From the NCBI RefSeq assembly GCF_029760955.1, contig NZ_CP121682.1, forward strand, positions 3,596,001-3,660,000: DNA of 64,000 nucleotides, in the 5' to 3' direction. This DNA comes from Streptomyces cathayae. Lineage in GTDB: Bacteria > Actinomycetota > Actinomycetes > Streptomycetales > Streptomycetaceae. The position numbers were made by a program, and so were the translations under genes. Each line of letters begins with the position of its first letter. Position 1 is the stretch's first letter. Of the stretch, positions 39,956-62,955 are shown piece by piece. Under the pieces are notes generated by a model, which was not told the origin of the DNA, did not search any database, and saw only the letters and a program-made list of their open reading frames with translations.

Positions 39956-39970
39956 CAGTGAAGTACCAGG

Positions 39971-47301: not shown

Positions 47302-48828
47302 CTAGGCAACGCTATGGAGAGCAAGCCTTCTCAAGCGCAAAAGTTCGTTGAGCACGCGCACCGGCGATGTGGGGCACATGGCCAGTCGGGCGTCGAGTGC
47401 TGCCTGCCATTGCTCGGTCAGCCCGTGCATGAGGCGCTTGCGCATGCCAGGGGTGACGTGGGCGTAGCGCGCCGACACGGAGCCGTCGATGTGGCCCATG
47501 CGTTCGTCCATAAGGACCTTCTCCGTTCCGAGGTCCTCCATCACGGTCCGGTGGGTGTGGCGAAGGCCGTGGGGCGTGAGGCCCTTGGCGATGGAGAGCC
47601 AGCAGGCGTCTGCCCGTTCGCTGGCGCCCCGCCCTCTTGCCGGAACGCCGGGCCAGGGCTCGCCGAGCACCGGCACAGGCCGTGGCTCTTGCGGTGCCTT
47701 CTTCGGGTACCAGCCGGAGACCGCCGGGGTGAACAGCCAGGTCGCAAAACCATTCCTGCGCCAATGGGCGGCGCGCTCCGATACGACGCCACCCCGTACG
47801 AACCCGAGGTCCGCGATAGCTTGCTCCACCTTCGCTCGTGTGGCTTCGGTGACGCGGTCGGGGTGGTTGAGGATGTTGGACACGGTGCCCGTGGAGACTC
47901 CGGCTCGGCGTGCGACGTCGACGAGCTTCGCGCCCTGGTGGCCGCCAGTGCGGGCTGCTCCCTGCCCTCGGAAGACGTAGGCCTTGCCGTGGCACGGACA
48001 CGGCGTGGGCTTCGTACGGGCGACGTGGTTGGCGACCAGGGCCGACAGCCAGTCCATCGCGTCGATGGTGCGGTAGCTGTCGTCCTTGGGCGGGCAGCGC
48101 ACCAGCTCGCCTGTGTCGAGTTCATACAGCTGCCACTCCACGCGGACAGCACCGGCGCGGGCGAACTCGGTTTCTAGACCGACGATTTCGCCCCAGCGCA
48201 TGCCGGTGTAGCCCTTGAGGACCACGGCGACGAACTCGTCGTCGCGGCCGGAGAGCAGGGCGGCCCGTTCGGCGGTCAGCAGGATGCCGAGCGGGTCGGT
48301 GACGACCTTCTCCGGGCCGCGGTCGCGGGAGCGGCCGGCGCGCTTGCCGCGTCCGCGCCGTCGCGCGGCCGGGTTGGACGTGATCACCCCCTCGTCGATC
48401 GCGTCCTCGAAGATCAGGTGGAGCGTCGAGCGCCAGGTCTTGACGCTGGAGGCCGCGTAGACGGCCTTCTCCTTCTTCTCCCACAGGTCGACGTCCGTGC
48501 GCAGGATGCCAGCGAGCGCCATGTCCTCGAAGTCCGGGAGCAGGTGCTCCTCGATGTGGCGCTTGTAGTTCTGCATGGTCGAGGCGGCCAGGTCCTGGGC
48601 CTCGTACCAGCGGTTCGCGTACTCGCCGAAGGTCTCCTGGCCGAGCGCCGGGTCGCGCCAGTCGCCGCGCCGGTACTTGTTCTCGGCCTCGCTCGCGGCG
48701 CGCTGGGCCTCGCCCTTGGTGGCGAACCGGATTGCCTTGCCGTTGTCGTCGGCCACCGTGAGGTGCTTGCCGGGCGCGGTCTTGTACCGGCCGCGCCAGT
48801 AGTTTCCGCGCTTCTCCGCGAAACCCAC
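47302..48828 (-). CDS. int: Tyrosine site-specific integrase with an inserted LacI-type HTH domain
   Basis: This 508-residue tyrosine recombinase has an N-terminal arm-binding region (1-60), a SAM-like core-binding domain (65-155) and a catalytic domain with Arg211 (GYTGMRWGE), His420-x2-Arg423-His424 (LTPHGLRHTH), His446 and nucleophile Tyr455 (SARYAHV). Between the beta-hairpin region and the HxxR motif lies a segment at about 299-346, KLVDVARRAGVSTGTVSNIL through NHPDRVTEATRAKV, that matches the LacI-family helix-turn-helix. Ordinary element integrases lack it. The insertion does not remove any catalytic residue. The gene is followed by xis upstream in the same direction. Confidence 0.92.
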   Translation of the reverse strand: MGFAEKRGNYWRGRYKTAPGKHLTVADDNGKAIRFATKGEAQRAASEAENKYRRGDWRDPALGQETFGEYANRWYEAQDLAASTMQNYKRHIEEHLLPDFEDMALAGILRTDVDLWEKKEKAVYAASSVKTWRSTLHLIFEDAIDEGVITSNPAARRRGRGKRAGRSRDRGPEKVVTDPLGILLTAERAALLSGRDDEFVAVVLKGYTGMRWGEIVGLETEFARAGAVRVEWQLYELDTGELVRCPPKDDSYRTIDAMDWLSALVANHVARTKPTPCPCHGKAYVFRGQGAARTGGHQGAKLVDVARRAGVSTGTVSNILNHPDRVTEATRAKVEQAIADLGFVRGGVVSERAAHWRRNGFATWLFTPAVSGWYPKKAPQEPRPVPVLGEPWPGVPARGRGASERADACWLSIAKGLTPHGLRHTHRTVMEDLGTEKVLMDERMGHIDGSVSARYAHVTPGMRKRLMHGLTEQWQAALDARLAMCPTSPVRVLNELLRLRRLALHSVA

Positions 48829-48855
48829 GTGTACTTCCCCTCCCCTGTCGTCGTC

Positions 48856-49266
48856 CTAAGCGGCGGTCCCGAACTGGCTCTCGCGTGCGCGGCGTGGGGA
48901 CCGCGCACGCAGTCGAGCCGTGGGCACGGCAGGCGGCGGGGAAGGGTGGGGAGTTGGCGGCTTGGGAGCGCGAGCCGCCGGGTGCTGCTGGGGGGAGGCA
49001 GGACGGGCCTCGTGCATGCGGATGATCTCCGCGAGGTGCTCGCCGGTGAAGCGGTAGGCGCGGCCTACGCGCGTGAAGGGGATGAGCCGCCGACGGGCAC
49101 GGTCCTTGACCCACCAGGCGGAGCAGCCGAGGACGGCCGCAACCTCCTCCGGGACGTAGAGGCGGGGCAGGGCGGCGTCCGAGTACGGAGTCGGTGCGGA
49201 GGCAGGGGGTATCGCGGGTTGGCGCAAGGGGTGGTTCCTCTTCTGGCGGGCATGGTGCGGCAACAC
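48856..49266 (-). CDS. xis: Excisionase-like HTH protein
   Basis: The protein has 136 residues. The central part LYVPEEVAAVLGCSAWWVKDRARRRLIPFTRVGRAYRFTGEHLAEI is a winged helix of the MerR/excisionase type, as in elements where Xis directs the integrase toward excision. The C-terminal 50 residues are Pro/Ala/Arg-rich and probably disordered. It lies 27 bp upstream of int on the same strand, the usual xis-int order. The start is uncertain; a later start would only shorten the disordered N-terminus. Confidence 0.82.
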   Translation of the reverse strand: MLPHHARQKRNHPLRQPAIPPASAPTPYSDAALPRLYVPEEVAAVLGCSAWWVKDRARRRLIPFTRVGRAYRFTGEHLAEIIRMHEARPASPQQHPAARAPKPPTPHPSPPPAVPTARLRARSPRRARESQFGTAA

Positions 49267-49355
49267 CAGCCCGCCGGTCGATCGCTGGGGATGGGGTGGG
49301 GATGCCCGTGCTGGGGGTTTGCGGGCCCAGGACGGGATGGGATGGAAGCGGGAGG

Positions 49356-49874
49356 CTATGCCTCGTCGGAGGTGTCGGCCTCGCCGTGGTGCGCGGCGGT
49401 CGGCGGTCCGTACGCCTTCAGCAGATGCTTGGCGGACTCCTCGGCCATGGCGTTGGAGACCATCACGTCCGCTTCCTCGCGGATGTCGGGGTGCTCGGCG
49501 AGGTAGGCGTCCAGGGCGTCGCGCGCCTGGGTGTAGGCGACGTTGGCGTGCTGGGTCTCGCGGAAGGCGTCCACGACGGCGTCGATGAGCTCCATGGCTC
49601 GGGCCTGGGCGGCAAGCTGGGGCGGGCCGACGAGGTTGCGCAGGTCGATGCCGAAGACCTCGGCGAAGCCGATGGCCTCGTCGAGGTTGATGCGGCGCTT
49701 GCCGTTCTCGATGCGCCAGACCGCCGATGGGTTCATCTCGAAGCCGGCCTCGTTCAGGCGGTCGGACAGGGCGTTGGTGCTCCAGCCGCGCGCCTCGCGC
49801 TCAAGCTTGATGCGCACGGCGACGTTCGCCTCGCCGCTGAGCAGCACGCCCTGTGGGGCGTCTTCATCTGCCAC
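49356..49874 (-). CDS. XRE-family repressor of the element
   Basis: The protein has 172 residues. A helix-turn-helix domain (about 20-75, IKLEREARGWSTNALSDRLN then MNPSAVWRIENGKRRINLDE) is followed by a helical C-terminal region (ARAMELIDAVVDAFRETQHA) for dimerisation. The GTG start (VADEDAPQG) was chosen for the perfect AAGGAGGT ribosome-binding site five bases before it; an upstream ATG in frame is less well placed. It is divergent from the replication gene, and three TTCTGC/GCAGAA half-sites lie in between, as expected for an immunity-type repressor that controls excision and replication genes. Confidence 0.82.
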   Translation of the reverse strand: MADEDAPQGVLLSGEANVAVRIKLEREARGWSTNALSDRLNEAGFEMNPSAVWRIENGKRRINLDEAIGFAEVFGIDLRNLVGPPQLAAQARAMELIDAVVDAFRETQHANVAYTQARDALDAYLAEHPDIREEADVMVSNAMAEESAKHLLKAYGPPTAAHHGEADTSDEA

Positions 49875-49939
49875 AGCCACCTCCTTCCGTTCGTAGCGAG
49901 TCACTGCCATTTGCAGCAACCCCTGAACAGTAGCATGTA

Positions 49940-49965
49940 TTCTGCGAGATGCAGAACACTTCTGC
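49940..49965. promoter_or_regulatory. Triple half-site operator between repressor and rep genes
   Basis: TTCTGC (49940-49945), GCAGAA (49951-49956) and TTCTGC (49960-49965) form an inverted pair plus a third arm with 11- and 9-bp steps. They lie in the divergent promoter region, whose AT content is raised. Confidence 0.55.
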
Positions 49966-50166
49966 GATCGGCAATTAGTGTGGCATGGTGGTAGCCCCGC
50001 CCCCACCAGCCCGAGGAGCCTCCGCGACCCGCCCCGCGTAGCGCCGCATGCAAAAAGCCCCCGGCTGTCACCGGGGGCCAAGCGCAAACCTCTCAACCGC
50101 CATCCCTAGCGATCGACCCGCGTGGCCGGGATTGCCGTCCCGTATGGCCCGCGAGCAGAGGAGCTG

Positions 50167-51699
50167 ATGCCCAGTATGACCGATGCCCAACCGAATACGC
50201 CATCCCGCTCCATGGACATCCACGCGTCAGCGCCGGAAGGGCCCACACAGCCTTTCAACGTGGAGGCCGAGCGCGCGGTGCTCGGCGCCTGCATGCACCA
50301 CAGCGACGTCATCGACGCGGTGCGGCCCGTCCTGGGCGACGACGCCTTCTATCGGCCCGCGCACGAGACGGTCTGGCGGGCACTGCTCGCCCAGCACCGC
50401 GAGGGCAGGCCGACCGATCCGATCGTCCTGACCGAGCTGCTCCAGGAGCAGGGCGATCTGCAGCGTGTCGGCGGCCCCGCCTACCTGCACCAGCTCGCCG
50501 ACGCGCTCTACGGCACCGGCAACGCGGAGTACCACGCGGAGATCATCCGCAAGAAGGCCGACCTGCGCCGGCTGCTGGCCTCCGCCGTACGCACCGTCCA
50601 GCGCGCCCAGGAGCCCGGCGCCGATCCTGACGAGATACGCAGCGACATCGAGGCGACGGTGCGTGCCGAACGCGAGCGCGCGCTCGCCTCGGGTCAAGGC
50701 CGCCTGTCTCGGTTCGCCGTCGACGGATGGTGCTTCGTCAAGGAGACCGGGGCCGACACCGAACCCCTGTGGGGAACCCGCGACAAGACCGTTTGGGCAT
50801 CGGGCGAGAGCCTCATGATCGTCGGCGCTCCCGGCGTCGGTAAGACCACCCTGGCCCACCAGGTCGTCTTCGCGCGCCTCGGCCTCCAGGAGACGGTCCT
50901 GGAGATGCCGGTCGCGCCCAGCAGGCGGGTGCTCTACCTGGCCATGGACCGCCCCAAGCAGATCGCCAAGGCCATGGACCGCCGTGTCTTCCCCACCGAC
51001 GAGAAGATTCTGCGGGACCGGCTCGTCGTCTGGCAGGGCCCGCTGCCCGCCAGCCTGGACAAGGAGCCCGACCTCCTCGCCGACCTCGCCACCGCCCACC
51101 GGGCCGACACCATCGTGATCGACAGCCTCAAGGACGCCGTCAGCACGATGGTCGACGACAGCCTCGCGGTCGCCTTCCACAACGCCCGCAACCGCGCGCT
51201 GCGCAACGGCGTGGAGATCATGGAGCTGCACCACCAGCGCAAGGCCACCGCCGACGCCCCACGCGGCCAGCGCCCCAGCCTGGACCAGGTCTACGGCTCC
51301 ACCTGGTACGTCTCCGGCGCGGGCAGCGTCCTGTTCGTCACCGGCAAGGCCGGCGACCCCGCCGTCACCCTCCACCACCTCAAGACCCCCACCGGGGAGA
51401 TCGGCCCGCTGGATGTCACCCACGACCACGTGCGCGGCACCACCACGGTCGACCCCAGCAAGGACCCCGCCGTCCTGCTCCGCAACGCCCCGAACGGGCT
51501 GAGCGCCCGCGACCTGGCAGCGGTCCTGATCGGCGGAGGCGACCCCGACCGCGCCGACGTGGAGAAGGCACGACGCCACCTGGCCCGCCTCGTCGACAGC
51601 GGCCTGGCCACCAAGGCCGACGGCATCGCCGGAGGAGCCGGAGGCGGACAGCAGACCCGCTACTACGCCTCCGCCCGCCACCTCACCGCCGTCGGCTGA
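50167..51699 (+). CDS. Replication protein with DnaB N-terminal and P-loop helicase domains
   Basis: The protein has 510 residues. Residues 30-135 match the DnaB helicase N-terminal domain (VEAERAVLGACMHHSDVID and ALYGTGNAEYHAEIIRKKADLRRLL). The RecA-like ATPase follows, with Walker A VGAPGVGKTT (219-228), Walker B-like ADTIVIDSLKDAV and a RepA-type arrangement. The C-terminal 60 residues look like a winged helix (DRADVEKARRHLARLVDSGL). Such proteins replicate the excised circle of actinomycete elements. The ATG follows GAGGAG. Iteron-like repeats lie just after the gene. Confidence 0.85.
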   Translation: MPSMTDAQPNTPSRSMDIHASAPEGPTQPFNVEAERAVLGACMHHSDVIDAVRPVLGDDAFYRPAHETVWRALLAQHREGRPTDPIVLTELLQEQGDLQRVGGPAYLHQLADALYGTGNAEYHAEIIRKKADLRRLLASAVRTVQRAQEPGADPDEIRSDIEATVRAERERALASGQGRLSRFAVDGWCFVKETGADTEPLWGTRDKTVWASGESLMIVGAPGVGKTTLAHQVVFARLGLQETVLEMPVAPSRRVLYLAMDRPKQIAKAMDRRVFPTDEKILRDRLVVWQGPLPASLDKEPDLLADLATAHRADTIVIDSLKDAVSTMVDDSLAVAFHNARNRALRNGVEIMELHHQRKATADAPRGQRPSLDQVYGSTWYVSGAGSVLFVTGKAGDPAVTLHHLKTPTGEIGPLDVTHDHVRGTTTVDPSKDPAVLLRNAPNGLSARDLAAVLIGGGDPDRADVEKARRHLARLVDSGLATKADGIAGGAGGGQQTRYYASARHLTAVG

Positions 51700-51719
51700 G
51701 CTCCCGCCGGCCCACGCGA

Positions 51720-51859
51720 AGCGATCACGCGACCGTACACGCGGCCCTCACGCGAACACCCCGCAGTGAACCGCTCACAGCGCACACGCTCACCGCAAAA
51801 CCACAGGTCAAGCGATCACGCGAGCGTCCACGCCGTACACGCGCCCGAGCGATCACGCG
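51720..51859 (+). repeat. Iteron-like repeats downstream of the rep gene
   Basis: AGCGATCACGCG occurs three times (51720, 51811, 51848), and CCGTACACGCG occurs twice (51733, 51833), each behind a first-type unit. The set occupies an otherwise non-coding 190-bp stretch after the replication gene, a normal place for an origin. Confidence 0.55.
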
Positions 51860-51886
51860 CGGGCCCCCTTTAGAAGGGGGCCCGCG
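51858..51886 (+). terminator. 13-bp stem hairpin before the membrane-protein gene
   Basis: CGCGGGCCCCCTT (51858-51870) pairs perfectly with AAGGGGGCCCGCG (51874-51886), loop TAG. It follows the iterons and could end the rep transcript. Its right arm covers a possible GTG start, which argues for a start further down. Confidence 0.65.
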
Positions 51887-51957
51887 TGTACGCCCCCTCC
51901 GTGAACGCCGCTCACTACCGCCCCACAAGCCCCACCGCACCCCTGGAGAGACCTGAC

Positions 51958-53310
51958 TTGCCCTCCCCCGCCTCGACAGCCCAGGCCACGGAACACGGCA
52001 ATGCCTCGCTCCTGCCGGACTGGGCTGCCTCGCCTGCACTGACAGCGGTGCTGCTCGTCCTGCTCGTGCTACTCGCCCTGTTCACCGGGTGGATGATCCG
52101 CCAGCAGCGCCGGCAGCCGCCCGGCGCCAACCGGTGGCGCGGGACCGTCGCAGTGCGCGTCGCTGCCGTGGCCGCGATCGGTTGCACCGCCTACAGCGCG
52201 GACACCAGCTGGCGGTTCGCCGCCGACTACCTCGACATGGGCAGCACCGCCGAGCGCGTCGCGATGTTCGCCGTCGCCGAGCTGGCCCTGTTCGCCACCG
52301 CGCTGATGGCGCGCCAGAACCTGAACGGTCCGAAGCAGGCACCCGGCCTGCCCGGCACCCTCACCTGGGTCATCACCGCCGTCCAGATCCTGCCCGCCTA
52401 CGCCGAGTCAGGGCTGGTCGGCGGCACGGTGCGAGCCTTCGTCGGCCCGGTCATGGCCGCGATGCTGTGGCACCTGGCCATGGGCATCGAGCTGCGCCAC
52501 CGCACCCCCGACGCCGCCTCACGCAGCCTGGCCGCCGTCCTCGTCCGCCAGGCACGCGAACGCCTGCTGGCCCGACTGGGCATCGCCGACCAGGACGCGG
52601 ATGCCGCCCGGCTCATCCGCGAGCGCGCGCTGAGTGAATCCGTCGCCCTGATCCTCCGCGCCGAGGCGATGACCGACCGGCAGCGCGGCAGACGACGGGG
52701 ACGACGCCTGGCAGAGCGCCTGCACCAGGCCCTGGAACAGGCCGACGTCGACGGTGATCCGCTCCAGGACGAACTGCTGCTGCGCAAGCTCGCCACCCGC
52801 AAGCAGGCCCTCGACCTCGCGTCTGTCACGCTGCCGCCGCGCTGGCACGCCCCGGCCTCGTACACCGCCCGTGGATCCGGGCACAACAGTCTGGGCACCG
52901 CCCGCCCGGAACCAGCGCCACGGACAGAGGACGCTGCCCGCCCGCATTCATCAGACCCGGGCGACGACGAGGTGCCCCCAGCTGCCCGCCTTGCGCCAGG
53001 ACTGCCCACACGGGCAGCAACCGACGACTGCCCGCCACTCACGGGCAACACCTCGGGCAGCGCTCCGGGCAGGCCCAAGCGAAAACCGGCTGCCCCGAAG
53101 AAACACGAGGCCCGTAAATCTCGCGCCTCCGACGAGGTCATCCTCAGCTTCACCCACCGCATGTACGAGGAGACCGGCAGCGTCGGACGCGACCGGGTCG
53201 AGGACGCCCTGCGCGCCGCCGGCCACACCGTCTCCAGCGACGACGTCGGACGGATCGTCCGCGAGTTCAAGGCCCAACTCAAGGCCGCAGCCAGCGATCA
53301 ACCCCGCTGA
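51958..53310 (+). CDS. Element-encoded membrane protein with cytoplasmic helical tail (DUF2637-like)
   Basis: About 450 residues. Four hydrophobic segments (about 25-190) are of the kind seen in plasmid transfer/spread proteins. A long charged cytoplasmic part follows, and the C-terminal module DEVILSFTHRMYEETGSVGRDRVEDALRAAG looks like a small winged-helix or DNA-contacting domain. Function is not established; a role in transfer or membrane anchoring of the replicon is inferred from its neighbours. The TTG start was chosen for GGAGAG seven bases upstream; GTG codons at 51886 and 51901 are alternatives, the former inside a hairpin. Confidence 0.68.
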   Translation: MPSPASTAQATEHGNASLLPDWAASPALTAVLLVLLVLLALFTGWMIRQQRRQPPGANRWRGTVAVRVAAVAAIGCTAYSADTSWRFAADYLDMGSTAERVAMFAVAELALFATALMARQNLNGPKQAPGLPGTLTWVITAVQILPAYAESGLVGGTVRAFVGPVMAAMLWHLAMGIELRHRTPDAASRSLAAVLVRQARERLLARLGIADQDADAARLIRERALSESVALILRAEAMTDRQRGRRRGRRLAERLHQALEQADVDGDPLQDELLLRKLATRKQALDLASVTLPPRWHAPASYTARGSGHNSLGTARPEPAPRTEDAARPHSSDPGDDEVPPAARLAPGLPTRAATDDCPPLTGNTSGSAPGRPKRKPAAPKKHEARKSRASDEVILSFTHRMYEETGSVGRDRVEDALRAAGHTVSSDDVGRIVREFKAQLKAAASDQPR

Positions 53311-53357
53311 TCCCCACAGCTTCAGCGCTCCCAACCACGCCCCGACACGGAGGAACA

Positions 53358-53984
53358 ATGCACACCCCGCACCACCACGACCCCACCACCCACGAGGATC
53401 TCCTGCCGACCACCCCTGCCCCAGGCGGAGCAAGTTGGAGGTCCGGACACTCCCCCGCGGGGGGTGCGCTCGAACCCGACCCCGCCCCGGGGGTGGCGGG
53501 GCCCGTCCGGCACCAGGGGGCGCCGGACGGGAAGGCTGCGACCGAGGGCGGACCGCAGCCGGGCAGGGCCGGCCGCACGGCCAGGGCCGGGAAGGGCAAG
53601 TCGCGTCCGCGCGACAAGAAGCAGCGTCCCGCCCACAGCGTCCGCCTCAACGACCACGAGCTCGCCATCATCCGATCCGGTGCCGAGCACGTCGGCATGA
53701 GCGTGGCCGGGTTTTTGGCCTACTCCGCCCTGGCCGCCGCCCGCGACCAGTCCCGCACCGCGGCCGCCATCGCCACCGAGCGGGATGTCCTGACCGCGCT
53801 GTTCGGCGTGCGCCGTCAGCTCGGCTGGGCCGGCAGCAACGTCAACCAGATCGCCAAGGCCCTCAACTCCGGTGCTGACGCACCGCACTTCGCCGCTGCT
53901 CTCGACGGTCTGCGACGCGCCGCGCAGGCCGTCCAGCGGGCGGCCGACAGGATCACCAACCGGCGGGAGGACCAGGCGGCTTGA
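53358..53984 (+). CDS. mobC: MobC-like relaxosome protein
   Basis: The protein has 208 residues. The first 90 residues are disordered and basic. A ribbon-helix-helix-like SVRLNDHELAIIRSGAEHVGMSVAGFLAYSAL and the C-terminal FGVRRQLGWAGSNVNQIAKALNSG motif are the standard MobC pair, which binds oriT and helps the relaxase. The start follows GGAGGAACA. Its stop overlaps the TTG start of the relaxase gene (TTGA). Confidence 0.88.
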   Translation: MHTPHHHDPTTHEDLLPTTPAPGGASWRSGHSPAGGALEPDPAPGVAGPVRHQGAPDGKAATEGGPQPGRAGRTARAGKGKSRPRDKKQRPAHSVRLNDHELAIIRSGAEHVGMSVAGFLAYSALAAARDQSRTAAAIATERDVLTALFGVRRQLGWAGSNVNQIAKALNSGADAPHFAAALDGLRRAAQAVQRAADRITNRREDQAA

Positions 53985-55714
53985 TCCCCCGGATCCACCA
54001 GCAGGGCAGCAACACTCTCGGCCTCCTGCACTACCTGTACGGCAGGGGCACCCACGAGGAACACGTCGACCCCCACCTGGTCGCCTCCTTCGACGACATA
54101 GCCCCCGACCCCGGCCGCGACCCCTCGGTGACGAAGAAGGACCTCCAGCACCTCCTCGACCAGCCCCTGGCCCTCCTCGGCTCCGGGCAGCGCCCGGACA
54201 AGCACGTCTGGCACTGCTCCGTGCGCGCCGCCCCCGGCGACCCGATCCTGTACGACGAGCAGTGGGCCAAGATCGCCTGCCGCATGGTCGCCGCCACCGG
54301 CATCGACCCCGGCGACGGCGCCGGCTGCCGCTGGGCCGCCGTCCGCCACGCCACCGACCACATCCACATCATCGCCACCCTCATCCGCGAAGACGGCCGC
54401 CGCCCCGACCACCACCGCTCCGGCAAACGCGCCCAGGCCGAGGCCCGCCTCATCGAAACCGAGTACGGCCTGCACCGCGTCGCCCCTGGTGACGGCACCG
54501 CCGCCAAGCGCCCCACCAGCGCCGAACGCCACAAGGCCGAGCGCCAGGGCAGGGAACGCACCGTGCGGGAGGAGCTGCGCGAAACCGTCCGCCGCGCGGC
54601 GGCCGGCGCCGCCACCGAGACCGAGTTCTTCGACCGGCTCAAGGCCGCCGGGCTTCTGGTCCGCACCAGCGTGCTGCCCTCCGGTGACCTGCGCGGTTAC
54701 ACCGTCGCCCTGCCCGGCGATCGCAACAAGGACGGCGAACCGGTCTTCTACGCAGGCTCGACGCTCGCCCCCGACCTGTCCCTGCCCCGCATCCGGGACC
54801 GCTTCAACACAGCTGCCGTCGCGTCGGCGCCGGGCAGCACCGGCCGCCAGGACCATGGGGCCGCACAGCAGCCAGCGCCGTCCGCCGCACGGCGCACCAC
54901 CACACACGCGGCATGGGCGGCCCTGCTCGTCATCGACCACGGCGACGACGGCGCCGCGGCAGCGCAGATCGCCGCCACCGGCGAGGTCCTCGACGCCCTC
55001 GCCAAGACCTCCGCCCTCCACACCCGCCAGCAGCTACGCGAAGCGGCCTGGGCGTTCGAACGGGCCTCCCGCTCCCACACCCGAGCAGAGTTCTGCCACA
55101 GTCAGCAGCTACGACGCGCAGCCCGAGACCTGGTCCGTAGCGGCCCGGCACTCGGCCGGGGCGAGGACGGCGCCACCACCGCCATGGTGATCGACACACT
55201 CTTCTTCCTCGCCCTCGCCGCCGCACACTGGCACGCCCAGCGCCAGCACGCCCAGCAAGCCGCAGCCGCACGGCAGGCCGCCACCCACCTCCAGGCCGCG
55301 TACGCCGCGGCCAGCGAGGAATCGATGGCCCGCCTGCGAGCCCAGGGCCTGCGCCTGGCCCAGCCCGTACGCGACTGGTCCGCCGCCCTTCTGCGCACCA
55401 CCGCGCCACAGATCGCCGAGCGGGTGCTCGGCGAACCGGGCTGGTCCGCCCTGGCAGCCACCATCACGCACGCCTACCAGGCCGGCCATGACCCACAAGC
55501 GCTGCTGCACAAAGCCGTCGCCCAACGTGAACTGCACACCGCCGAGTCCGTCAGCGACGTCCTCGTCTGGCGTCTGCGACGCATGGCCGACCTGCCCGCC
55601 AACGTGACGGTGATCTCCCAGCACAGCACCCGGGCCACGGACTCACTGCCCTACGCTGCCCCGCTCGGACCCGTCTCCATCGCCGTCGACCAGCACCGCC
55701 GACACCGCAGGTAA
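53981..55714 (+). CDS. mobA: MobA/VirD2-like relaxase (mobilisation nuclease)
   Basis: This 577-residue relaxase starts with MIPRIHQQGSNTLGLLHYLY, which holds the candidate catalytic tyrosines 18 and 20. The metal-binding His triad is RHATDHIHI (His123, His127, His129 with Asp126). It nicks one strand at oriT and leads it into the recipient. The C-terminal 350 residues are helical with several Gln/Ala-rich stretches and lack a recognisable helicase. The TTG start overlaps the mobC stop and is preceded by GGGAGGA. A matching coupling protein or FtsK-like TraB is missing nearby, so transfer would need a helper. Confidence 0.9.
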   Translation: MIPRIHQQGSNTLGLLHYLYGRGTHEEHVDPHLVASFDDIAPDPGRDPSVTKKDLQHLLDQPLALLGSGQRPDKHVWHCSVRAAPGDPILYDEQWAKIACRMVAATGIDPGDGAGCRWAAVRHATDHIHIIATLIREDGRRPDHHRSGKRAQAEARLIETEYGLHRVAPGDGTAAKRPTSAERHKAERQGRERTVREELRETVRRAAAGAATETEFFDRLKAAGLLVRTSVLPSGDLRGYTVALPGDRNKDGEPVFYAGSTLAPDLSLPRIRDRFNTAAVASAPGSTGRQDHGAAQQPAPSAARRTTTHAAWAALLVIDHGDDGAAAAQIAATGEVLDALAKTSALHTRQQLREAAWAFERASRSHTRAEFCHSQQLRRAARDLVRSGPALGRGEDGATTAMVIDTLFFLALAAAHWHAQRQHAQQAAAARQAATHLQAAYAAASEESMARLRAQGLRLAQPVRDWSAALLRTTAPQIAERVLGEPGWSALAATITHAYQAGHDPQALLHKAVAQRELHTAESVSDVLVWRLRRMADLPANVTVISQHSTRATDSLPYAAPLGPVSIAVDQHRRHRR

Positions 55715-56071: not shown

Positions 56072-56929
56072 ATGACGCTCTCGGTCTCCACGGGTCAGGC
56101 TGTTGACCTACGGGTGCAGCCGGTTGACGAGGTTCTTGATCGCGTCGCGCGGTCTCTCCAGGTGCGCCTGCTCCCGGATACGGTGGTGCGCAAACGCCGG
56201 TCTGTGGGAGCCCGGACAGACCGCGATACCTGGGTCCGGGTCGAGCGGCGCTCGCCCGACAAGATCGCCGATCAAGGGTGGAACGGCACCGAGTGTGCCG
56301 CCCGTCTGGAAGGCGTCGCCCAGCCGACATGGCAGGGATGTGTGGTCTGGCGGGACGCGGATGGACCGGTGATGTGGCGGGCCGACGAAACCAGCCTCCT
56401 GCCGGCCGCTCCCGTCGGAAGCGCCGTCTTGAGCGAAGCCCCGGAACTGCCGGATGAGTGGTGGGAGGCGTTGAACGCCTCGCTGGACGCGCTGGCGGCT
56501 CATAGGACGAGGCGGACCGCCACACCGGACACCGACACCATCACCCAGGAACTGGTCACCGAGTCCATTCGCGGTGTCTTCCCCGGCGACTTCGATACGA
56601 CCGTCCAGCAATGGGTGCCGGCCCATGCGGACCTGAACTGGGCCAACCTGACTGCTCCGGTGTTCAACCTCTTCGACTGGGAGGACTGGGGAAACGCACC
56701 GCAGGGGCTGGACTCCGCATCACTTTGGGTGAGTTCGCTTGCCGTCCCCGCTCTGGCCGATCGCGTACGGCAGGAGCGCCGGCGCGACTTCGAGAGCCGG
56801 GACGGCAAGCTGATGACGTTGTTCGTCTGCTCGAAGATCCTCGGACCGTACGCGCATCCGGAGGACCCTCGGTTGGAACCCGCGCGACGCATGGCCGAGC
56901 AGGTCATCGAGGAGCTTCAGGCGGGCTGA
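56072..56929 (+). CDS. Aminoglycoside-phosphotransferase-like kinase-fold protein
   Basis: This 285-residue protein has an APH-type kinase core: the catalytic loop AHADLNWANL (Asp187, Asn192) and the metal-binding FDWEDWG (Asp202). The N-lobe is hard to recognise: no clear glycine-rich loop is seen, though KIADQGWNGTECAARLEG may lie near it. The substrate is unknown, and resistance should not be assumed. There is no ribosome-binding site, and TACGGT shortly before the ATG suggests a leaderless transcript. The 3' end overlaps that of the convergent aldo/keto reductase gene by 13 bp. Confidence 0.8.
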   Translation: MTLSVSTGQAVDLRVQPVDEVLDRVARSLQVRLLPDTVVRKRRSVGARTDRDTWVRVERRSPDKIADQGWNGTECAARLEGVAQPTWQGCVVWRDADGPVMWRADETSLLPAAPVGSAVLSEAPELPDEWWEALNASLDALAAHRTRRTATPDTDTITQELVTESIRGVFPGDFDTTVQQWVPAHADLNWANLTAPVFNLFDWEDWGNAPQGLDSASLWVSSLAVPALADRVRQERRRDFESRDGKLMTLFVCSKILGPYAHPEDPRLEPARRMAEQVIEELQAG

Positions 56930-57774
56930 CCCTGCGAGCGGTCACGAAGGAGTCTCCGGTACTCCTGGATGATCCGCTCCTCGACCTCGCCGGTCAGGGC
57001 GTCGACGAGCTCACCCAGATGAGCGGGTTCGTCGGCGCCCACCGCAACGGCGCCAACCCGCGGGAGGTGATAGGCCGCCCGAAAGGCTGCCTGCACGCGG
57101 GAGAGCCGACTGCTGTCCCGTAGGAAGACGCGTGGGTCGATCCTGGCCCACACCGGGGCGCTGGTGCTGCCTCCGAAGGGGCTCATCCCCCACACCGCAC
57201 CGTCGCCCAGGTCCCATGCTTTGATGAGGGCGTCCGCGGCATCGAGCGTTCTGACTCCGACCAGCAGGCCGGCGCGGACCATGAGGACCGACGGCCTCGG
57301 TGCGGTCGGGTCGATCAGGTTCAGCAGCGGTGACGGGTCCCAGGACGCGACGCCCCAGGCGGCGCACAGCCCTTTCGCCGCAGCGTCGTCGAGGGCGGTG
57401 CACGCCTGCGCCAGCACGTCCCGGCCATGCGGGGCGCCCTCACGGAGCGAGTGTTCTGGGTTGTGCAGGAACAGCAGGTCGGGCTCCCGCCCGAGCTCCT
57501 CGGCCGCCTGTTCCACAGCCGCGTGCAGCCGTACGGGATCCAGGCAGTGCTCCCCGCCGTTCCGCCCCGGGAAGTATCCGACCTTCGTGGAGACCGTGAA
57601 CTTCGGCAGCAGATCACCGGCTGTCCGCGCCAGGATCCGATGCGAGCGGAAGCCGAGGTAGTTGGTGCTGGTGTCGAGTGCGGTGACACCGAGATCAAGC
57701 GCTCCGGTCAGGAGACGGCGTTCGTGACGAGACCGGTGTAGCCCGAGGACAACTCGGGTGTCAGCACCGCGCAC
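56917..57774 (-). CDS. Aldo/keto reductase
   Basis: This 285-residue (alpha/beta)8-barrel NADPH-dependent reductase has the full catalytic tetrad: Asp34 and Tyr39 (LDTSTNYLGF), Lys64 (VSTKVGYF) and His104 (LLFLHNPEH). The cofactor end is less canonical (VGAVAVGADEPAHLGELVDAL). The GTG start was chosen because AAGGAGG lies just before it; the start is inside the 3' end of the JmjC gene, so the two overlap by 67 bp and are translated together. Together with the upstream peptide and oxygenase genes it may be part of a peptide- or metabolite-modifying path. Confidence 0.85.
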   Translation of the reverse strand: MRGADTRVVLGLHRSRHERRLLTGALDLGVTALDTSTNYLGFRSHRILARTAGDLLPKFTVSTKVGYFPGRNGGEHCLDPVRLHAAVEQAAEELGREPDLLFLHNPEHSLREGAPHGRDVLAQACTALDDAAAKGLCAAWGVASWDPSPLLNLIDPTAPRPSVLMVRAGLLVGVRTLDAADALIKAWDLGDGAVWGMSPFGGSTSAPVWARIDPRVFLRDSSRLSRVQAAFRAAYHLPRVGAVAVGADEPAHLGELVDALTGEVEERIIQEYRRLLRDRSQGQPA

Positions 57775-58904
57775 AGCTCCTCCTTCACCAGGATCTCGGC
57801 CAGCTCCGTTACCTCGGCCCCGACGACGGCCGCGGCCCGCTCCAGCGGGACCGGCCTGCCGCTCAGCAGCGTCCGCAGTGCGGGCAGGGCCTTGGCCGTG
57901 AGGGTGAGCTTCTTCCCTGCGGCCACCACGTCGACGGTCGCCCCGTTCTCCAAGACCCGGGGAGGGAAGTGGGTGGTGCACACCACGCCGTCGAGCGGCC
58001 CGAGGACGTCGAGGAACGGCACGTGGCGCGGCAGCGCCGTCTCCTGCTCGTGCGCGGCCAGGAAGTCGGCTGGAGACCGTTCGCCGACCAGCATTGCGGC
58101 GGCCTTGGTCAGAGCCTCGCTGTCGGGCTCATGCCAGCGGTCCAGGTCGTGCCGGAAGATCTCGTTTTCGCGGCACCAGTCGGCCAGCCAGGCGAGCCAG
58201 CTCGCTCCCGTGCGTTTGGTGATGCCGAACGTGACGTGAAGGCTCTTTCCCGAGCCGCTGCCGGTCCGGGTCGCCTGATGCCAGTGCCCTCGGGGGATGT
58301 GCATGACGTCGCCGGCCTTCAGGAGGCCGGACCAGATGCTCTCGTCACTCGGGGTGTTGTTGGGGTCCGAGTCCCGGTACATGGGGACCTTGCGCGAGGT
58401 CGAGCGCACCTCCCACTCCTTCTCGCCCGCGAGCTGCACGATCACGACATCGTGGTCGTCCCAGTGCAGGGGGAAGCCGTCGGCGTCGTTCGTCGTCAGG
58501 TACGCGTTGACCTGCACGCGCTCATGGGACCACCACTGCAGCGCCCGGCACGCGACCTCCATCGTCGGATCGAAGACGTTGGCCTGGTCGAGGATGAGCG
58601 TCGCACCTTCCCGCAGGAGCCTTCCGAGGCTGCGCATGTTGACCATGGGGATGCTCTGGCCCCGGGGGCTGACGCTGTCGGTGTAGTAGACGGCCGGGTG
58701 CACCTCCTCGCCCTTCTGGAAGCACCGGAACTGCGGGCGGTTGAGGCTCCTGCGCATCGCGATGTCGAGCAGGCGGTTCGGAGTCAGAAGGCGGGAGACG
58801 AGTGCGGGGTCGTCCATGCTCCCCCGTACGAAGCTCTTGCCCAGCTCCTCCGCTCCGCTCCACCCGAGCGCTGTCTCGATAGCGCTGATCAATCGATGTT
58901 CCAT
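57708..58904 (-). CDS. JmjC/cupin-type 2-oxoglutarate Fe(II) oxygenase
   Basis: This 398-residue protein has the cupin/JmjC facial triad PLHWDDHD (His147, Asp149) and HIPRGHWHQ (His207, possibly His209 instead). The C-terminal part (about 300-398) is a winged-helix-like domain. This layout matches bacterial ROXA/NO66-like ribosomal protein or peptide hydroxylases. The ATG (MEHRLISAIE) follows GGAGGACGCAGCG. It lies downstream of a 55-residue peptide gene, with a strong hairpin between them, and upstream of an overlapping aldo/keto reductase gene, so the peptide is its most likely substrate. Confidence 0.85.
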   Translation of the reverse strand: MEHRLISAIETALGWSGAEELGKSFVRGSMDDPALVSRLLTPNRLLDIAMRRSLNRPQFRCFQKGEEVHPAVYYTDSVSPRGQSIPMVNMRSLGRLLREGATLILDQANVFDPTMEVACRALQWWSHERVQVNAYLTTNDADGFPLHWDDHDVVIVQLAGEKEWEVRSTSRKVPMYRDSDPNNTPSDESIWSGLLKAGDVMHIPRGHWHQATRTGSGSGKSLHVTFGITKRTGASWLAWLADWCRENEIFRHDLDRWHEPDSEALTKAAAMLVGERSPADFLAAHEQETALPRHVPFLDVLGPLDGVVCTTHFPPRVLENGATVDVVAAGKKLTLTAKALPALRTLLSGRPVPLERAAAVVGAEVTELAEILVKEELCAVLTPELSSGYTGLVTNAVS

Positions 58905-58943
58905 CGCTGCGTCCTCCATGGGTTCGACCACGTGATGCGGGCA

Positions 58944-58981
58944 CGGTGGGGCCGGCACGGCCAGTCGTGCCGGCCCCACCG
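58944..58981 (-). terminator. 16-bp stem attenuator-like hairpin between peptide and JmjC genes
   Basis: CGGTGGGGCCGGCACG (58944-58959) pairs perfectly with 58966-58981 across a 6-nt loop. It lies between a short peptide gene and its enzyme genes on the same strand, where partial termination would give more peptide than enzyme mRNA. Confidence 0.7.
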
Positions 58982-58989
58982 CTTGGTGC

Positions 58990-59157
58990 CTACTCGCTGT
59001 CGTGCAGGTTGCCGTCGCCGCCCGGCCACGGCGCGTCGCCGGAACTTCCGGCGTTGTCGGACCGGAGGCTGTCGTACCGGTCGTGGACGGCGGTCAGCTC
59101 TTCCACCGCCATCAGGAGGCCGCTCCGGGCCGGAGGCGGTGTCGTGCGCTCTGCCAC
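58990..59157 (-). CDS. Small peptide, candidate RiPP precursor (55 residues)
   Basis: The product starts VAERTTPPPARSGLLMAVEE and ends in a Gly/Ser/Asp-rich, Trp-containing tail APWPGGDGNLHDSE. The N-terminal helix-forming GLLMAVEELTAVHDRYDSLR resembles a leader, and the tail resembles a core with His, Asp, Ser and Trp as modifiable residues. GAGGAAGGAG lies six bases before the GTG, so it is well expressed on its own; a longer upstream reading has no ribosome-binding site. It is the first gene of the unit peptide, hairpin, JmjC oxygenase, aldo/keto reductase. I recognise no known precursor family. Confidence 0.6.
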   Translation of the reverse strand: MAERTTPPPARSGLLMAVEELTAVHDRYDSLRSDNAGSSGDAPWPGGDGNLHDSE

Positions 59158-59283: not shown

Positions 59284-59622
59284 CTACACCGGCGGCCGGG
59301 CAGCCCGGCTGGTCATCGGCAGGACGTCCGCGTCCTGGCGCATGCTGACCTCCAGGACGCGCTGGTCCAGTTCGTACAGACACGCGCGGCAGGCGTAGAG
59401 GGCCGCGTGCATACCGCTCGACCGGACGGGACCGATCCACGTCACCTCGACGTCGTCACGTCCGCACCACAGCCAGCACTCACCACGCGAGTGCCATTCA
59501 TGGCGGTCCCACAGGGCGTAAGCAGTGGGCTCCCCTGTGACGGGGTCGATGTCGCGGCGGGTGGGCCGGAACACCACATCAGGACCAGAAGGCGGAGCCG
59601 CTCGTACTGCGTGCCGTCCCAT
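59284..59622 (-). CDS. Small Cys-rich protein coupled to HATPase gene
   Basis: The protein has 112 residues with two cysteine pairs, ECWLWCG and YACRACLYEL, that could form a zinc ribbon, plus several Trp and His residues (YALWDRHEWHSRGE). Function unknown. The ATG overlaps the stop of the HATPase gene (TGATG), so the two proteins are coupled. Such small companions are common next to Streptomyces RsbW-like proteins and XRE regulators. Confidence 0.7.
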   Translation of the reverse strand: MGRHAVRAAPPSGPDVVFRPTRRDIDPVTGEPTAYALWDRHEWHSRGECWLWCGRDDVEVTWIGPVRSSGMHAALYACRACLYELDQRVLEVSMRQDADVLPMTSRAARPPV

Positions 59623-60113
59623 CACGCGACTGCCAGAACGAGCGACTTGGACTCGGCTACGACTCCACGCTTCGGCCGCAACGCGAATAACTTGCGCAGA
59701 ACGGCAGCTCGGATGGCAGGCGCCGCCGTAGGAAGCACGATCTCCGCCCATACGCGCTTCCCATGGTCGGAGGGCTCCCAGGTACACCGCGCCGCGAGAA
59801 GGCCGACCAGCACCAGGCCGCGCCCGCTCTCGTCGTCGGCCTGAGCACAACCCATCTGCGGGGCGGATGGGTTGCCGTCAAGGACGTCGATCACCAAGCG
59901 ACCGGGCCGGTGGTACAACGTGACGGTGACCGGCCCCGCCCCATGGACTACGGCGTTGGTGATGAGCTCGGAGGCGACGAGGCGAACGGCGTCAGCTGCC
60001 TCCTCATCCATCGGCACACCCCACGTGCGCACTTTGTCGACGACTACGCGCCGGGCGAGGGGCACTTCCCTTTCCGTACCCGCGAGGACGAACCGATGGA
60101 CGAGCGTGGGCAT
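59622..60113 (-). CDS. RsbW-like HATPase domain protein
   Basis: This 163-residue single HATPase domain has the N-box SELITNAVVHG, the G1 motif DVLDGNPSAP and the G2 motif GRGLVLVGLLA, all well conserved, so ATP binding is likely. The family works as anti-sigma or orphan regulatory kinases. The ATG (MPTLVHRF) was chosen for GGAGG eight bases upstream; two earlier starts are possible. It is divergent from the XRE regulator gene and coupled to the small Cys-rich protein. Confidence 0.82.
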   Translation of the reverse strand: MPTLVHRFVLAGTEREVPLARRVVVDKVRTWGVPMDEEAADAVRLVASELITNAVVHGAGPVTVTLYHRPGRLVIDVLDGNPSAPQMGCAQADDESGRGLVLVGLLAARCTWEPSDHGKRVWAEIVLPTAAPAIRAAVLRKLFALRPKRGVVAESKSLVLAVA

Positions 60114-60365
60114 GGCGGACGCCTCCGAAGAGCTGGAGAGCGGCTCCATCCCTGACAGGGACACGGGAATGGAGCCGCCGATCTGAGGAGCCGTTACGAG
60201 AGCGAGCACCCTGGGCGTGCTCCATGGACGGCTGATACTCAGTCAACGGCGCCAGCACGCACGTCGGAACGTTTCTAGGGGGTTTCTCCTGGGGCGCCCT
60301 CCCCAGACACGGACACGAGAAGTAACCTTCCAACTACGCCGTGGGGGGATGACGGGAGTGATGAC

Positions 60366-61709
60366 GTGCCTGGTGAGCCGTTAGCAGTTCATCCGCTGAG
60401 CTTCGTCCTCCAGACGCGCGGGTGGGGGAAGGCCGAATTCGCCCGGCTCATGCAGAAGCACGGGAGGTCGCTCGGGACCCCCCTGGCGACCAACCGGACG
60501 ACCGTATGGAAGTGGGAGCAGGGACAGGAGCCGGATGCGGATGCCCAGCGTGTCCTCGCCGACCTGCTGCGCGTCCCGGACGAACAGGTGCGCGCGGAAG
60601 GATGGCCCCGGTGGCTCCCGGTCTGGGAGGTGACGGGGCTCACCGCTCCGTGGACCGAGGCCGGTACGGTCGAGGCACTGTCCGATCTGGTGGGGAGTGG
60701 CCGCATGGACCGCCGGGGCTTTCTCACCATCACCGGCGCCGCCTTGACGGGGCTCGCGGCGAGCTGGGTGGACGCACCCTCCGCCTTCGCCTCGGCGCTC
60801 AACGGTGACCGGGTCACGGACACGATGGTCTCGACGATCGAGCAGCGTATCTGCACCCTCCGCACGCTCGACGACCAGCTCGGAGGCGCCCGGCTTCTGG
60901 AGCAGGCACGCGGTGATCTCGCTCTGGTCACCGGTCTCCTCAGCGGTGGGCGGTACACCGACAGGGTCCGCCTCCGCCTGTACGCGCTGGCGGCCCGAGT
61001 GTCGCACCTGACCGGCTGGATGGCCTACGACGCCGGCCTGCGATCCGCCGGCCAGCGCTACTACGTCGGCGCCCTGCGCAGCGCCCGTACCGCCGGGGAC
61101 GACGCCTTCGGCGCCTTCATCCTCGCGGAGATGGGAGTGCACGTCTCCGAGGCCGGACGCACCGCCGAGCGGGTCGACCTCATCTCGACCGCCATCGACA
61201 ACGCTCCCCGTTCGCTGTCGTCCTGCACCCAGTCCTTCCTCTACCTGCACAAGGCCGAGGCGCTGTCACGCGACGGCTACCACCGCAAGGCCGGAACGGC
61301 ACTGAACCGCGCCACTTCCCTCTGGGAGCGTGATGCGGCGGAGGAGAACCCGGACTGGCTCGACTGGTTCGGCGAGGCGCAGTTGAGGTCGACCGAGGGC
61401 AAGGTCCTGTTGCGCTCCGGGCAGGTGGAGCGCGCGACGAGTTCCCTGCAGACCTCCGTGGAAAGCGCGGCTCCCCGGGACAAGGCCGTACGGTCTAGCC
61501 GCCTGGCTGAGGCACGGCTCGTCGGCGGTGACCTGGAGGGAGCGCTGGACGCCGCGAACTACGGCGCCGGACTCCTGGAGGACAGTGTCAGCTCCGTACG
61601 GGCTCTGGACCGCCTGAAGGAGTTCTCTGCGCGGCTCGAACCGCACAAGTCCGCCCCTTCTGTCCGCGAGTTCCGCGAGCGCCTACAGGAACTGCCCGTT
61701 GCCGTCTGA
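60366..61709 (+). CDS. XRE-type regulator with TPR-like C-terminal part
   Basis: The protein has 447 residues. An N-terminal helix-turn-helix (LSFVLQTRGWGKAEFARLMQ, then NRTTVWKWEQGQEPD) is followed at about 115 by DRRGFLTITGAALTGLA. This looks like a Tat signal but is internal and typical of this Streptomyces regulator family. TPR-like helices fill the rest (SLWERDAAEE, LYLHKAEALSRDGYHRKAG). TPR regulators of this shape often sense small peptides. The GTG start follows GGGAG. It is divergent from the HATPase gene and could control the adjacent peptide locus. Confidence 0.82.
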   Translation: MPGEPLAVHPLSFVLQTRGWGKAEFARLMQKHGRSLGTPLATNRTTVWKWEQGQEPDADAQRVLADLLRVPDEQVRAEGWPRWLPVWEVTGLTAPWTEAGTVEALSDLVGSGRMDRRGFLTITGAALTGLAASWVDAPSAFASALNGDRVTDTMVSTIEQRICTLRTLDDQLGGARLLEQARGDLALVTGLLSGGRYTDRVRLRLYALAARVSHLTGWMAYDAGLRSAGQRYYVGALRSARTAGDDAFGAFILAEMGVHVSEAGRTAERVDLISTAIDNAPRSLSSCTQSFLYLHKAEALSRDGYHRKAGTALNRATSLWERDAAEENPDWLDWFGEAQLRSTEGKVLLRSGQVERATSSLQTSVESAAPRDKAVRSSRLAEARLVGGDLEGALDAANYGAGLLEDSVSSVRALDRLKEFSARLEPHKSAPSVREFRERLQELPVAV

Positions 61710-61782
61710 CAGGCACCGCCTTGGACGCCGAGGACGAGCCCGCCTCGCCGGGGAGAGCGGCCGAACTGCCAGGATGAATGGC

Positions 61783-62955
61783 ATGACGACGATCGGCGGT
61801 GAGGTGGCACCCGGGTTCGAACCGGTGCGTGAGGCATTCGCGGCGAACTTCGCCCAACATGGGGACATCGGTGCGGCGGTATGCGTGTACCAGTACGGCC
61901 AGCCGGTGGTGGACCTGTGGGGCGGCGTCGCCGACCCCGAAACCGGTCGTCCGTGGACACGGGACACGCTGCAACTGGTCTACTCGGCGACCAAGGGAGC
62001 GACCGCAACCGCGGCGCACATGCTGGCCCAACGCGGCGCACTGGACCTGGACGCGCCGGTGGCGAAGTACTGGCCGGAGTTCGCCGCGAACGGCAAGGCG
62101 GACATCCCGGTGCGCTGGCTCCTGTCCCACCAAGCCGGCTTGGTCGCGCTGGATCAACCAGTGCCGCTGAAGGAGGCGTTGGCCTGGCATCCGATGGCGG
62201 CCGCACTGGCCGTCCAGCGCCCTCTTTGGGCTCCGGGCACGGCGCACGGGTACCACGGACGGACCTGGGGCTGGCTGATCGGCGAAGTGATCCGCCGCGT
62301 GTCCGGCCGCACACCGGGCCGCTTCTTCGCCGCCGAGATCGCGGCCTCCCTCGGGCTGGACTTCTTCATCGGCTTGCCGGCAAGCGAGCGCGACCGGGTC
62401 AGCCGCATGGTGTACCGGCGGCCGGATGTCGACCTCACCACCATGCCCGCCGAGTCGCTTCCGGAGGAACTCCGCGAACAGGTCGCCGCCTGGCGCGACC
62501 CGAACTCATTCAGCAACAGGGCGTACGCGGTCACCGACCCCGCCGAGATCGACTTCGACTCACCGGAGGTGCAGGCCGTGGAACTCCCGGCCTCCAATGG
62601 CATCGGCACCGCGCGCGCACTTGGGCGCATGTACGCCGCGCTGATCGGCGAGGTGGACGGCGTTCGCCTGCTCACCCCGGAAACCCTGGCGTCAGCGACC
62701 AGAGAGCAGGTCGGCGGGAAAGATCAGGTGATGCTGATCCCAAGCCGATTCAGCACCGGCTACATGCTGCCCACCAAGGCCAACCCCATGACCGGCCCGA
62801 ACGCCTTCGGCCACACGGGCCGAGGCGGCTCACTCGGCTTCGCCGACCCGGAGCACGGCATCGCCTTTGGCTACGTGATGAACCACATCATCGGGGGGCC
62901 CGATGATGTGCGTGCGACCTCGTTGGCCGACGCGGTGCGAAGGTCACTGGTGTAA
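61783..62955 (+). CDS. Beta-lactamase-fold serine hydrolase (class C / EstB-like)
   Basis: This 390-residue enzyme has the SxxK nucleophile motif at Ser68-Lys71 (YSATKGATAT), a Tyr in GTAHGYHGRTWG at the place of the YxN motif, and a third motif GHTGRGGS in place of KTG. Such family VIII esterases hydrolyse esters rather than beta-lactams. No signal peptide is present, so the enzyme is cytoplasmic. An ATG three codons upstream is also possible; the chosen one has AGGA eight bases before it. Confidence 0.88.
   Translation: MTTIGGEVAPGFEPVREAFAANFAQHGDIGAAVCVYQYGQPVVDLWGGVADPETGRPWTRDTLQLVYSATKGATATAAHMLAQRGALDLDAPVAKYWPEFAANGKADIPVRWLLSHQAGLVALDQPVPLKEALAWHPMAAALAVQRPLWAPGTAHGYHGRTWGWLIGEVIRRVSGRTPGRFFAAEIAASLGLDFFIGLPASERDRVSRMVYRRPDVDLTTMPAESLPEELREQVAAWRDPNSFSNRAYAVTDPAEIDFDSPEVQAVELPASNGIGTARALGRMYAALIGEVDGVRLLTPETLASATREQVGGKDQVMLIPSRFSTGYMLPTKANPMTGPNAFGHTGRGGSLGFADPEHGIAFGYVMNHIIGGPDDVRATSLADAVRRSLV

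Follow-up and report, generated by a model that had tools for sequence, protein, structure and literature searches.

A small peptide gene conserved beside a JmjC-domain oxygenase points to an undescribed modified-peptide family in soil actinomycetes

Introduction

In the accessible parts of recent reports, the JmjC-domain proteins BipG and PbsQ hydroxylate ornithine (Orn) in the precursors of ribosomally synthesized and post-translationally modified peptides (RiPPs) (PMC12707348, PMC12257519), and an update of RRE-Finder describes RRE-fused JmjC proteins with bacterial homologues "in RiPP-like genomic contexts" (PMC12710340). A 2-oxoglutarate (2OG) dioxygenase is also associated with Cys-Tyr crosslinking RiPPs (Xia 2025, JACS, as cited in the accessible part of PMC12636437). 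Within the open-access literature that we found, JmjC proteins appear in RiPP biosynthesis only as the hydroxylases of biphenomycin pathways. Here we analyse a locus in the 7.6-Mb genome of Streptomyces cathayae, contained in a stretch of 64,000 nucleotides (contig NZ_CP121682.1, positions 3,596,001 to 3,660,000; hereafter the window), in which a small peptide gene precedes genes for a JmjC oxygenase and an aldo/keto reductase (AKR) and a kinase gene converges on them. A preliminary description, made from the sequence alone, had proposed a RiPP-like operon with these two redox enzymes; the conservation, co-occurrence and leader/core pattern reported below lend that proposal strong support, and the locus is very likely a RiPP cassette.

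Linkage of the peptide to the JmjC gene

The cassette comprises the following features (coordinates of the window).

58990..59157, minus strand: precursor peptide gene, 55 aa, GTG start at 59157, stop codon 58992-58990
58944..58981, minus strand: conserved hairpin separating the peptide stop from the start of the JmjC gene, with a 6-nt loop on a perfect stem of 16 bp and without a T-run
57708..58904, minus strand: JmjC_2 (PF08007) oxygenase, 398 aa, HxD...H and GEK lysine aligning with MINA53, C-terminal winged helix
56917..57774, minus strand: AKR (PF00248), 285 aa, GTG start, D34/Y39/K64/H104 kept
56072..56929, plus strand: convergent APH-fold phosphotransferase, 285 aa, HxDxxxxN and DWE

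The peptide, hairpin, JmjC and AKR were all found on the minus strand where the preliminary description had placed them, as was the ribosome-binding site that it had assigned to the peptide gene (AAGGAG upstream of GTG 59157). The kinase is a cassette member absent from that account, and the ends of the kinase and AKR genes overlap by 13 nt.

Relatives were collected in a genome-collection scan, the best 80 of 170 serving as named loci (from Streptomyces, Kitasatospora, Streptacidiphilus, Actinacidiphila, Wenjunlia, Nocardiopsis, and Actinomadura). The merged set, group 1, holds 115 entries that are distinct by a 140-residue JmjC segment; 111 of them include upstream sequence, the four others (L154-L157) being pieces that end before this region. 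The peptide gene lies directly upstream of the JmjC gene in 110 of these 111 loci, and the sole exception (L176) is a 37% JmjC relative of another kind. The peptide motif had no match outside this position in 2.75 Mb of strand-sequence, versus the 110 directly upstream; among the named loci, 78 peptides were found by motif and the other two by eye. A search at the level of the phylum, covering 198 genomes, matched the JmjC protein in four at E ≤ 1e-30; two of the four had been met already, and the others are G855 and G869.

The same linkage is seen across 121 Streptomyces genomes, 15 of which carry a JmjC match at E ≤ 1e-50 (one at 39% identity, 14 at 51% or more). A peptide profile, scored at no more than 54 candidate places per genome, matched exactly the 14 genomes with the closer JmjC and none of the remaining 107. 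The neighbourhood check that the preliminary description had proposed thus finds the peptide conserved beside homologous JmjC genes in both samples.

Homologues of the peptide numbered 97 at E ≤ 1, and their named sources are Streptomyces or Kitasatospora, save one metagenome-assembled genome labelled Gemmatimonadales. In an alignment of 98 peptides that retains truncated and frameshifted rows, the initial dozen residues and the last few are variable, while residues 14-35 and 37-51 are mostly near-fixed. Measured against the window peptide gene in 58 of the 80 named loci, leaving out the 22 without an equal-length peptide of type A (see below), codon changes gave a ratio of nonsynonymous to synonymous change (pN/pS) of 0.215; purifying selection acts on the amino acids of the peptide. 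NCBIfam precursor models returned no family for the window peptide or for five of its relatives.

At the exceptional locus L176 (G111:C3:264000-277000), the peptide is a divergent one of 47 aa (MNAVTASELLRVET...), and genes beside it were labelled by eye as two M16-like peptidases, an MFS transporter, and a decarboxylase-like gene; the locus is perhaps another peptide pathway.

Leader and core of the peptide

The window peptide has a leader, LLMAVEELTAVHDR, at residues 14-27 and a core running from S33-D34 to the C-terminal end. Across the 110 precursors, the leader pattern LLxAVExLxxVxDR persists and the C-terminal part varies, giving 47 forms of leader and 53 of core, the latter measuring 8 to 24 residues from SD onward. 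The core types are:

Type A: SDNAGSSGDAPWPGGDGNL..
Type B: SDPGQGSSGDGPWPGGDGLNHAA and similar
Type C: SDPTGTSAGDDGDNRDGLNLPQE
Type D: SDGAAGDSGENRDG
Type E: SDSDGSDG

A constant leader, a diverging core and a linked enzyme together form a RiPP signature. Five residues (L14, L21, R27, S33, and D34) are common to all 20 representatives, and of the 98 aligned peptides 97 have S33 and 97 have D34. An Asp follows the leader in 110/110 precursors, a count that is partly by construction, since the scan motif required [SA]D (the separate motif search of the named loci did not). Ser precedes an Asp in 107 of the 110; 105 rows read SD and five AD, two of the latter with ESD a few residues on. None of the 53 distinct group-1 cores contains Cys; one plasmid core outside the set (L227) has one.

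The preliminary description had looked to the C-terminal tail, NLHDSE, as the site of modification and asked whether this end is conserved. The last few residues vary, with His at position 52 in 45 of the 98 peptides and Ser at position 54 in 28, against 97 for S33 and D34, and the tail was rejected as the target.

Paralogous and plasmid-borne cassettes

The S. cathayae genome holds a second, paralogous cassette (L158, G000:C1 ~3783550-3786660), in which the genes for peptide, JmjC, AKR, and APH kinase share one strand. Its JmjC protein is 30% identical to that of the window, and its peptide, MPEQNVTTNGAQEDHGLLVARRRIAAARSRAEQPSDGGSTGRSDGND, combines a different leader with an PSDGGSTGRSDGND core; peptide cassettes thus account for both of the JmjC_2 genes found there. 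Two further cassette types were drawn from part of the weaker JmjC matches. Type 2 (JmjC, AKR, and kinase on one strand; 28 loci) has the AKR in 26 loci, the kinase in 28, and a peptide in 25 or 26, that of L191 being doubtful and none being found in L190 and L222. Type 3, whose 21 loci (L173, L174, L203-L221) all belong to one family (f17), consists of a peptide of about 35-38 aa (e.g. MDPIEVEVEDLAEVTSRDITAGGDSDGTDSSSDFI) and a JmjC gene, with a prolyl oligopeptidase (Pfam S9) directly upstream in 21/21 loci; neither AKR nor kinase was found in these 21.

These paralogous cassettes carry other leaders and peptide ends rich in Ser/Thr, Asp, and Gly. D-x-D-G, the pattern of calcium-binding loops, occurs in all 21 type-3 precursors and in 7 of the 110 group-1 cores (one X being read as such). 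What is constant across the types is the JmjC enzyme and a precursor rich in Ser/Thr and Asp, while the remaining enzymes vary, which argues for the JmjC protein as the first enzyme and for Asp as the site.

A search of plasmids matched 40 records; coverage of the query reached 80% or more in five, and three records were examined. Peptide, JmjC, AKR, and kinase are present on plasmids of Streptomyces sp. NBC_01546, Nocardia sp. NBC_01377, and Pseudonocardia sp. DSM 110487, each with a leader-type peptide upstream and each in different surroundings, so that the linkage does not reflect chromosomal synteny alone. On the Pseudonocardia plasmid the third gene is annotated as "phosphotransferase", and on the Nocardia plasmid the kinase shares the strand of the other genes.

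Enzymes of the cassette

The JmjC protein matches PF08007 at 78 bits and its catalytic residues are invariant in 35 sequences. Its structure model matches NO66, MINA53, and YcfD over the full length of the fold; residues 321-379 form a winged helix whose elements come in the order of a RiPP recognition element, or RRE (strand-strand-strand-helix-helix-helix), but with an extra short strand at 356-358 (model confidence, pLDDT, 83-90 for the block), and this domain is part of the fold of ROX ribosomal oxygenases. Translation probably starts at ATG 58904, which is preferred because ATG 58919 overlaps the ribosome-binding site; the resulting 398 aa is the length of most of 120 homologues among the matches listed. 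Several JmjC analyses used ATG 58919.

The AKR, which matches PF00248 at 49 bits, was found in 80/80 named loci and in 110 of the 115 group-1 entries. Asp-Tyr-Lys-His is the catalytic tetrad motif of aldo/keto reductases, and each of the four residues is kept in at least 95% of 82 sequences. The gene probably starts at GTG 57774 and hence overlaps the JmjC gene by 67 nt. Several BLAST queries used a 272-aa form starting 13 residues late, and a search of PDB sequences with this form gave no match at E ≤ 0.001.

The convergent kinase is present in 77 of the 80 named loci (none in L128, L131, and L136; 3.9 kb away in L127 and on the same strand in L148) and in 80 of the 84 group-1 entries with at least 2.2 kb of downstream sequence. 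HxDxxxxN with a Mg-binding Asp is an APH-type motif, and the protein carries both along with the APH fold; its structure matches include AmiN at rank 1 and TvaE at rank 37. A Pfam search gave no match for the window kinase, while its paralogue exceeds the cut-off of the APH family, and a PDB sequence search gave nothing meaningful. Kinase homologues without an adjoining JmjC or peptide gene were also observed (L161-L169, L161 being the additional copy of a cassette-bearing genome).

The hairpin

The hairpin (58981-58944) closes a loop of ACTGGC with its perfect stem. Of 81 loci, 67 have a perfect stem of at least 8 bp in the interval from peptide to JmjC, where mononucleotide shuffles gave 7.5 on average. 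Compensatory changes affect 5 of 9 consensus pairs in 27 loci of our choosing. In L015, L016, L040, and L059 the peptide stop adjoins the JmjC start, leaving no space for a hairpin. The preliminary description had called the element an attenuator: the hairpin itself is present and conserved, whereas attenuation is unproven, a T-run is absent, and a terminator pattern scan listed no canonical terminator at this position. Rfam returned a single match, whose 21.7 bits fall short of the gathering score of 75. The hairpin may plausibly set the ratio of precursor to enzyme.

Genomic neighbourhood

No classic RiPP enzyme was recognised, in line with the preliminary description; the scanned neighbours in the window are without MNIO or radical SAM proteins, and the conserved neighbours of its relatives were judged by eye rather than scanned for the YcaO, LanM, radical SAM, or MNIO families. 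In L147, a radical-SAM-looking open reading frame (ORF) was noted by eye about 7 kb upstream. A PF00144 serine hydrolase (beta-lactamase/esterase family; 61774-62952) has relatives near 41 of 81 loci and may be a processing enzyme or mere synteny.

Directly upstream of the peptide, 59284-59616 encodes a small Cys-containing protein with no Pfam match, to which similar sequence occurs in 43 of 80 loci. It is followed by a HATPase gene and a divergent NsdA-family regulator (59622-61709), with relatives in 54/80 and 50/80 loci; these are possible regulators of the cassette or part of Streptomyces synteny. On the other side, the cassette adjoins mobile-element genes at 47302-55711 (integrase, DnaB-like, NikA/MobC, and relaxase), the integrase ORF including a LacI-like helix-turn-helix stretch (by eye). 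Beyond them, 40193-47176 holds a 1573-aa sacsin/HSP90-ATPase-like ORF and a helix-turn-helix/metallopeptidase-like gene (by eye), near a tRNA-Pro gene (39882-39956). A look for a tRNA-Pro repeat at which the mobile element could have attached gave no exact same-strand repeat of at least 12 nt elsewhere in the window.

Proposed pathway and alternatives

We consider the locus to be a compact RiPP cassette in which the JmjC enzyme oxidises the core and either the AKR and kinase act later or the kinase protects the producer, with a probability of about 0.8. That the peptide serves as the substrate of the JmjC protein is highly probable. We infer not only this modification but also its site, the order of the steps, the role of the kinase, and the manner of finishing, as follows. 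The leader, LLxAVExLxxVxDR, would be recognised by the JmjC protein, probably via its C-terminal winged helix, and this Fe(II)/2OG oxygenase would then oxidise the core, the likeliest site being D34, giving 3-hydroxyaspartate; hydroxylation of Asp as the first step is somewhat favoured. The AKR, translationally overlapped with the JmjC protein, would reduce (or, in reverse, oxidise) a carbonyl or alcohol arising from the D34 site. The kinase would phosphorylate either the modified peptide, as tailoring, or the mature product, as self-protection, and we hold the chances of self-protection and tailoring to be even. General proteases or exporters would complete maturation.

Several observations weigh against this pathway. 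We know of no modified product, transcript, or mass for the cassette, and the type-A core is strongly conserved, which is unusual for a fast-evolving antibiotic. In group 1, the gene clusters that recur in at least 6 of 81 loci included no peptidase or exporter that we recognised, apart from the PF00144 hydrolase. As modelled, the JmjC fold is that of ribosomal hydroxylases, and the winged helix belongs to this fold and need not bind a leader. The AKR was not found in L056-L059, where 1.3-1.5 kb of downstream sequence is available, or in L176 (5/115). The number of places scored per genome limits what the absence of the peptide from the 107 genomes can tell. Moreover, a kinase of at least 60% identity occurs in 9 of the 107 cassette-free Streptomyces genomes, one copy with an internal stop, and broken or partial copies occur in three more (G044, G074, and G013). 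Eight of the nine loci were inspected, with an AKR remnant in L163, an 86-bp remnant in L162, and nothing found by the searches made in the other six; the cassette-free kinase may serve another purpose or be left over after cassette loss.

Some of these observations would suit a peptide that is a small partner or regulator, an activator or adaptor of JmjC and AKR enzymes acting on a small molecule or another protein: the type-A peptides are conserved as a binding protein would be, and the cassette lacks a recognised peptidase or exporter. Yet the C-terminal part varies in both sequence and length under a constant leader, the paralogous cassettes change the leader and retain Ser/Thr-Asp-Gly-rich ends, and type 3 adds a prolyl oligopeptidase, which leaves a partner role improbable. 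Far less probable still is that the short ORF and hairpin form a regulatory leader (an attenuator or upstream ORF) controlling the JmjC gene. The conserved, compensated stem between the two genes is what such a leader would show, but selection acts on the encoded amino acids, four loci have no room for the stem, and neither a T-run nor an Rfam family at gathering level was found. The preliminary description had also raised the possibility that the JmjC protein clusters with ribosomal-protein hydroxylases that never adjoin peptides; the full-length fold is indeed shared, whereas this clade does adjoin a small peptide gene. An enzyme of ROX type beside a small gene by chance would hardly be confined to 14 of 121 Streptomyces genomes, always with the peptide, nor would one expect plasmid copies and both JmjC_2 genes of one genome in peptide cassettes, and we regard this explanation as very remote.

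A RiPP cassette with another JmjC chemistry, whereby the backbone would be oxidised or cleaved at Ser-Asp, or another residue oxidised, and the AKR would reduce the resulting aldehyde, is possible though doubtful. None of the 20 representatives departs from R27 or from the SD site, an AKR fits an aldehyde, and backbone cleavage by 2OG-dependent HEXXH enzymes is described for a RiPP pathway in the accessible part of PMC12636437. R27 is part of the leader, however, and type 3 and L056-L058, in which no AKR was found, suggest that what the JmjC enzyme makes can in some cases do without a reductase.

Returning to hydroxylation of Asp, we speculate, quite tentatively, that the JmjC protein might be the class-defining enzyme of an undescribed actinomycete RiPP superfamily with at least three cassette types. 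Its products would be small anionic Ser/Thr-Asp-Gly peptides bearing 3-hydroxyaspartate, some with the D-x-D-G calcium-loop pattern, that are metal-dependent and masked by the kinase in the producer. As the constant enzyme, the JmjC protein would offer genome miners a new handle, and the cassette would bring a kinase and a reductase of as yet unassigned role into RiPP chemistry. More than 100 precursor-enzyme pairs would become accessible to two-gene co-expression.

Comparison with known systems

We found no description of the cassette in the open-access literature, beyond which further work could exist, and the cassette points to an undescribed modified-peptide family in soil actinomycetes. 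Lanthipeptides and thioamitides differ from it in that a thioether needs a core Cys, which the 53 distinct cores lack, and so do the Cys-Tyr crosslinking RiPPs, which share a 2OG enzyme acting on a precursor as far as the citing source describes them. NO66, MINA53, and YcfD share with the cassette JmjC protein the fold, the metal triad, and the C-terminal winged helix; the cassette protein stands apart in its identity of 15-20%, its patchy distribution, and its adjoining precursor-like gene. To our knowledge, ROX genes are not tied to a small peptide gene. RRE-fused JmjC proteins share PF08007 and possibly an RRE-like fold, while the accessible part of that report names no precursor, AKR, kinase, or pathway (PMC12710340). 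The APH fold of the kinase is shared with AmiN, the amicoumacin kinase, and TvaE, of the thioviridamide pathway, at 10-15% identity.

The closest parallel is that of the biphenomycin-type enzymes BipG, BpmG, and PbsQ, which, like the cassette enzyme, are JmjC-domain (cupin-like) 2OG enzymes acting on a ribosomal precursor; as described in the accessible parts of the reports, these pathways differ in placing an Orn hydroxylase beside MNIO, arginase, and B12 radical SAM enzymes and in an FRF motif (PMC12707348, PMC12257519), which is absent from the 53 distinct cores of the cassette precursors. The precedent of BipG and PbsQ supports a JmjC protein acting on a ribosomal precursor. More generally, RiPP pathways already include JmjC hydroxylases and, in TvaE, an APH-fold kinase, and the cassette is therefore not of a wholly new kind.

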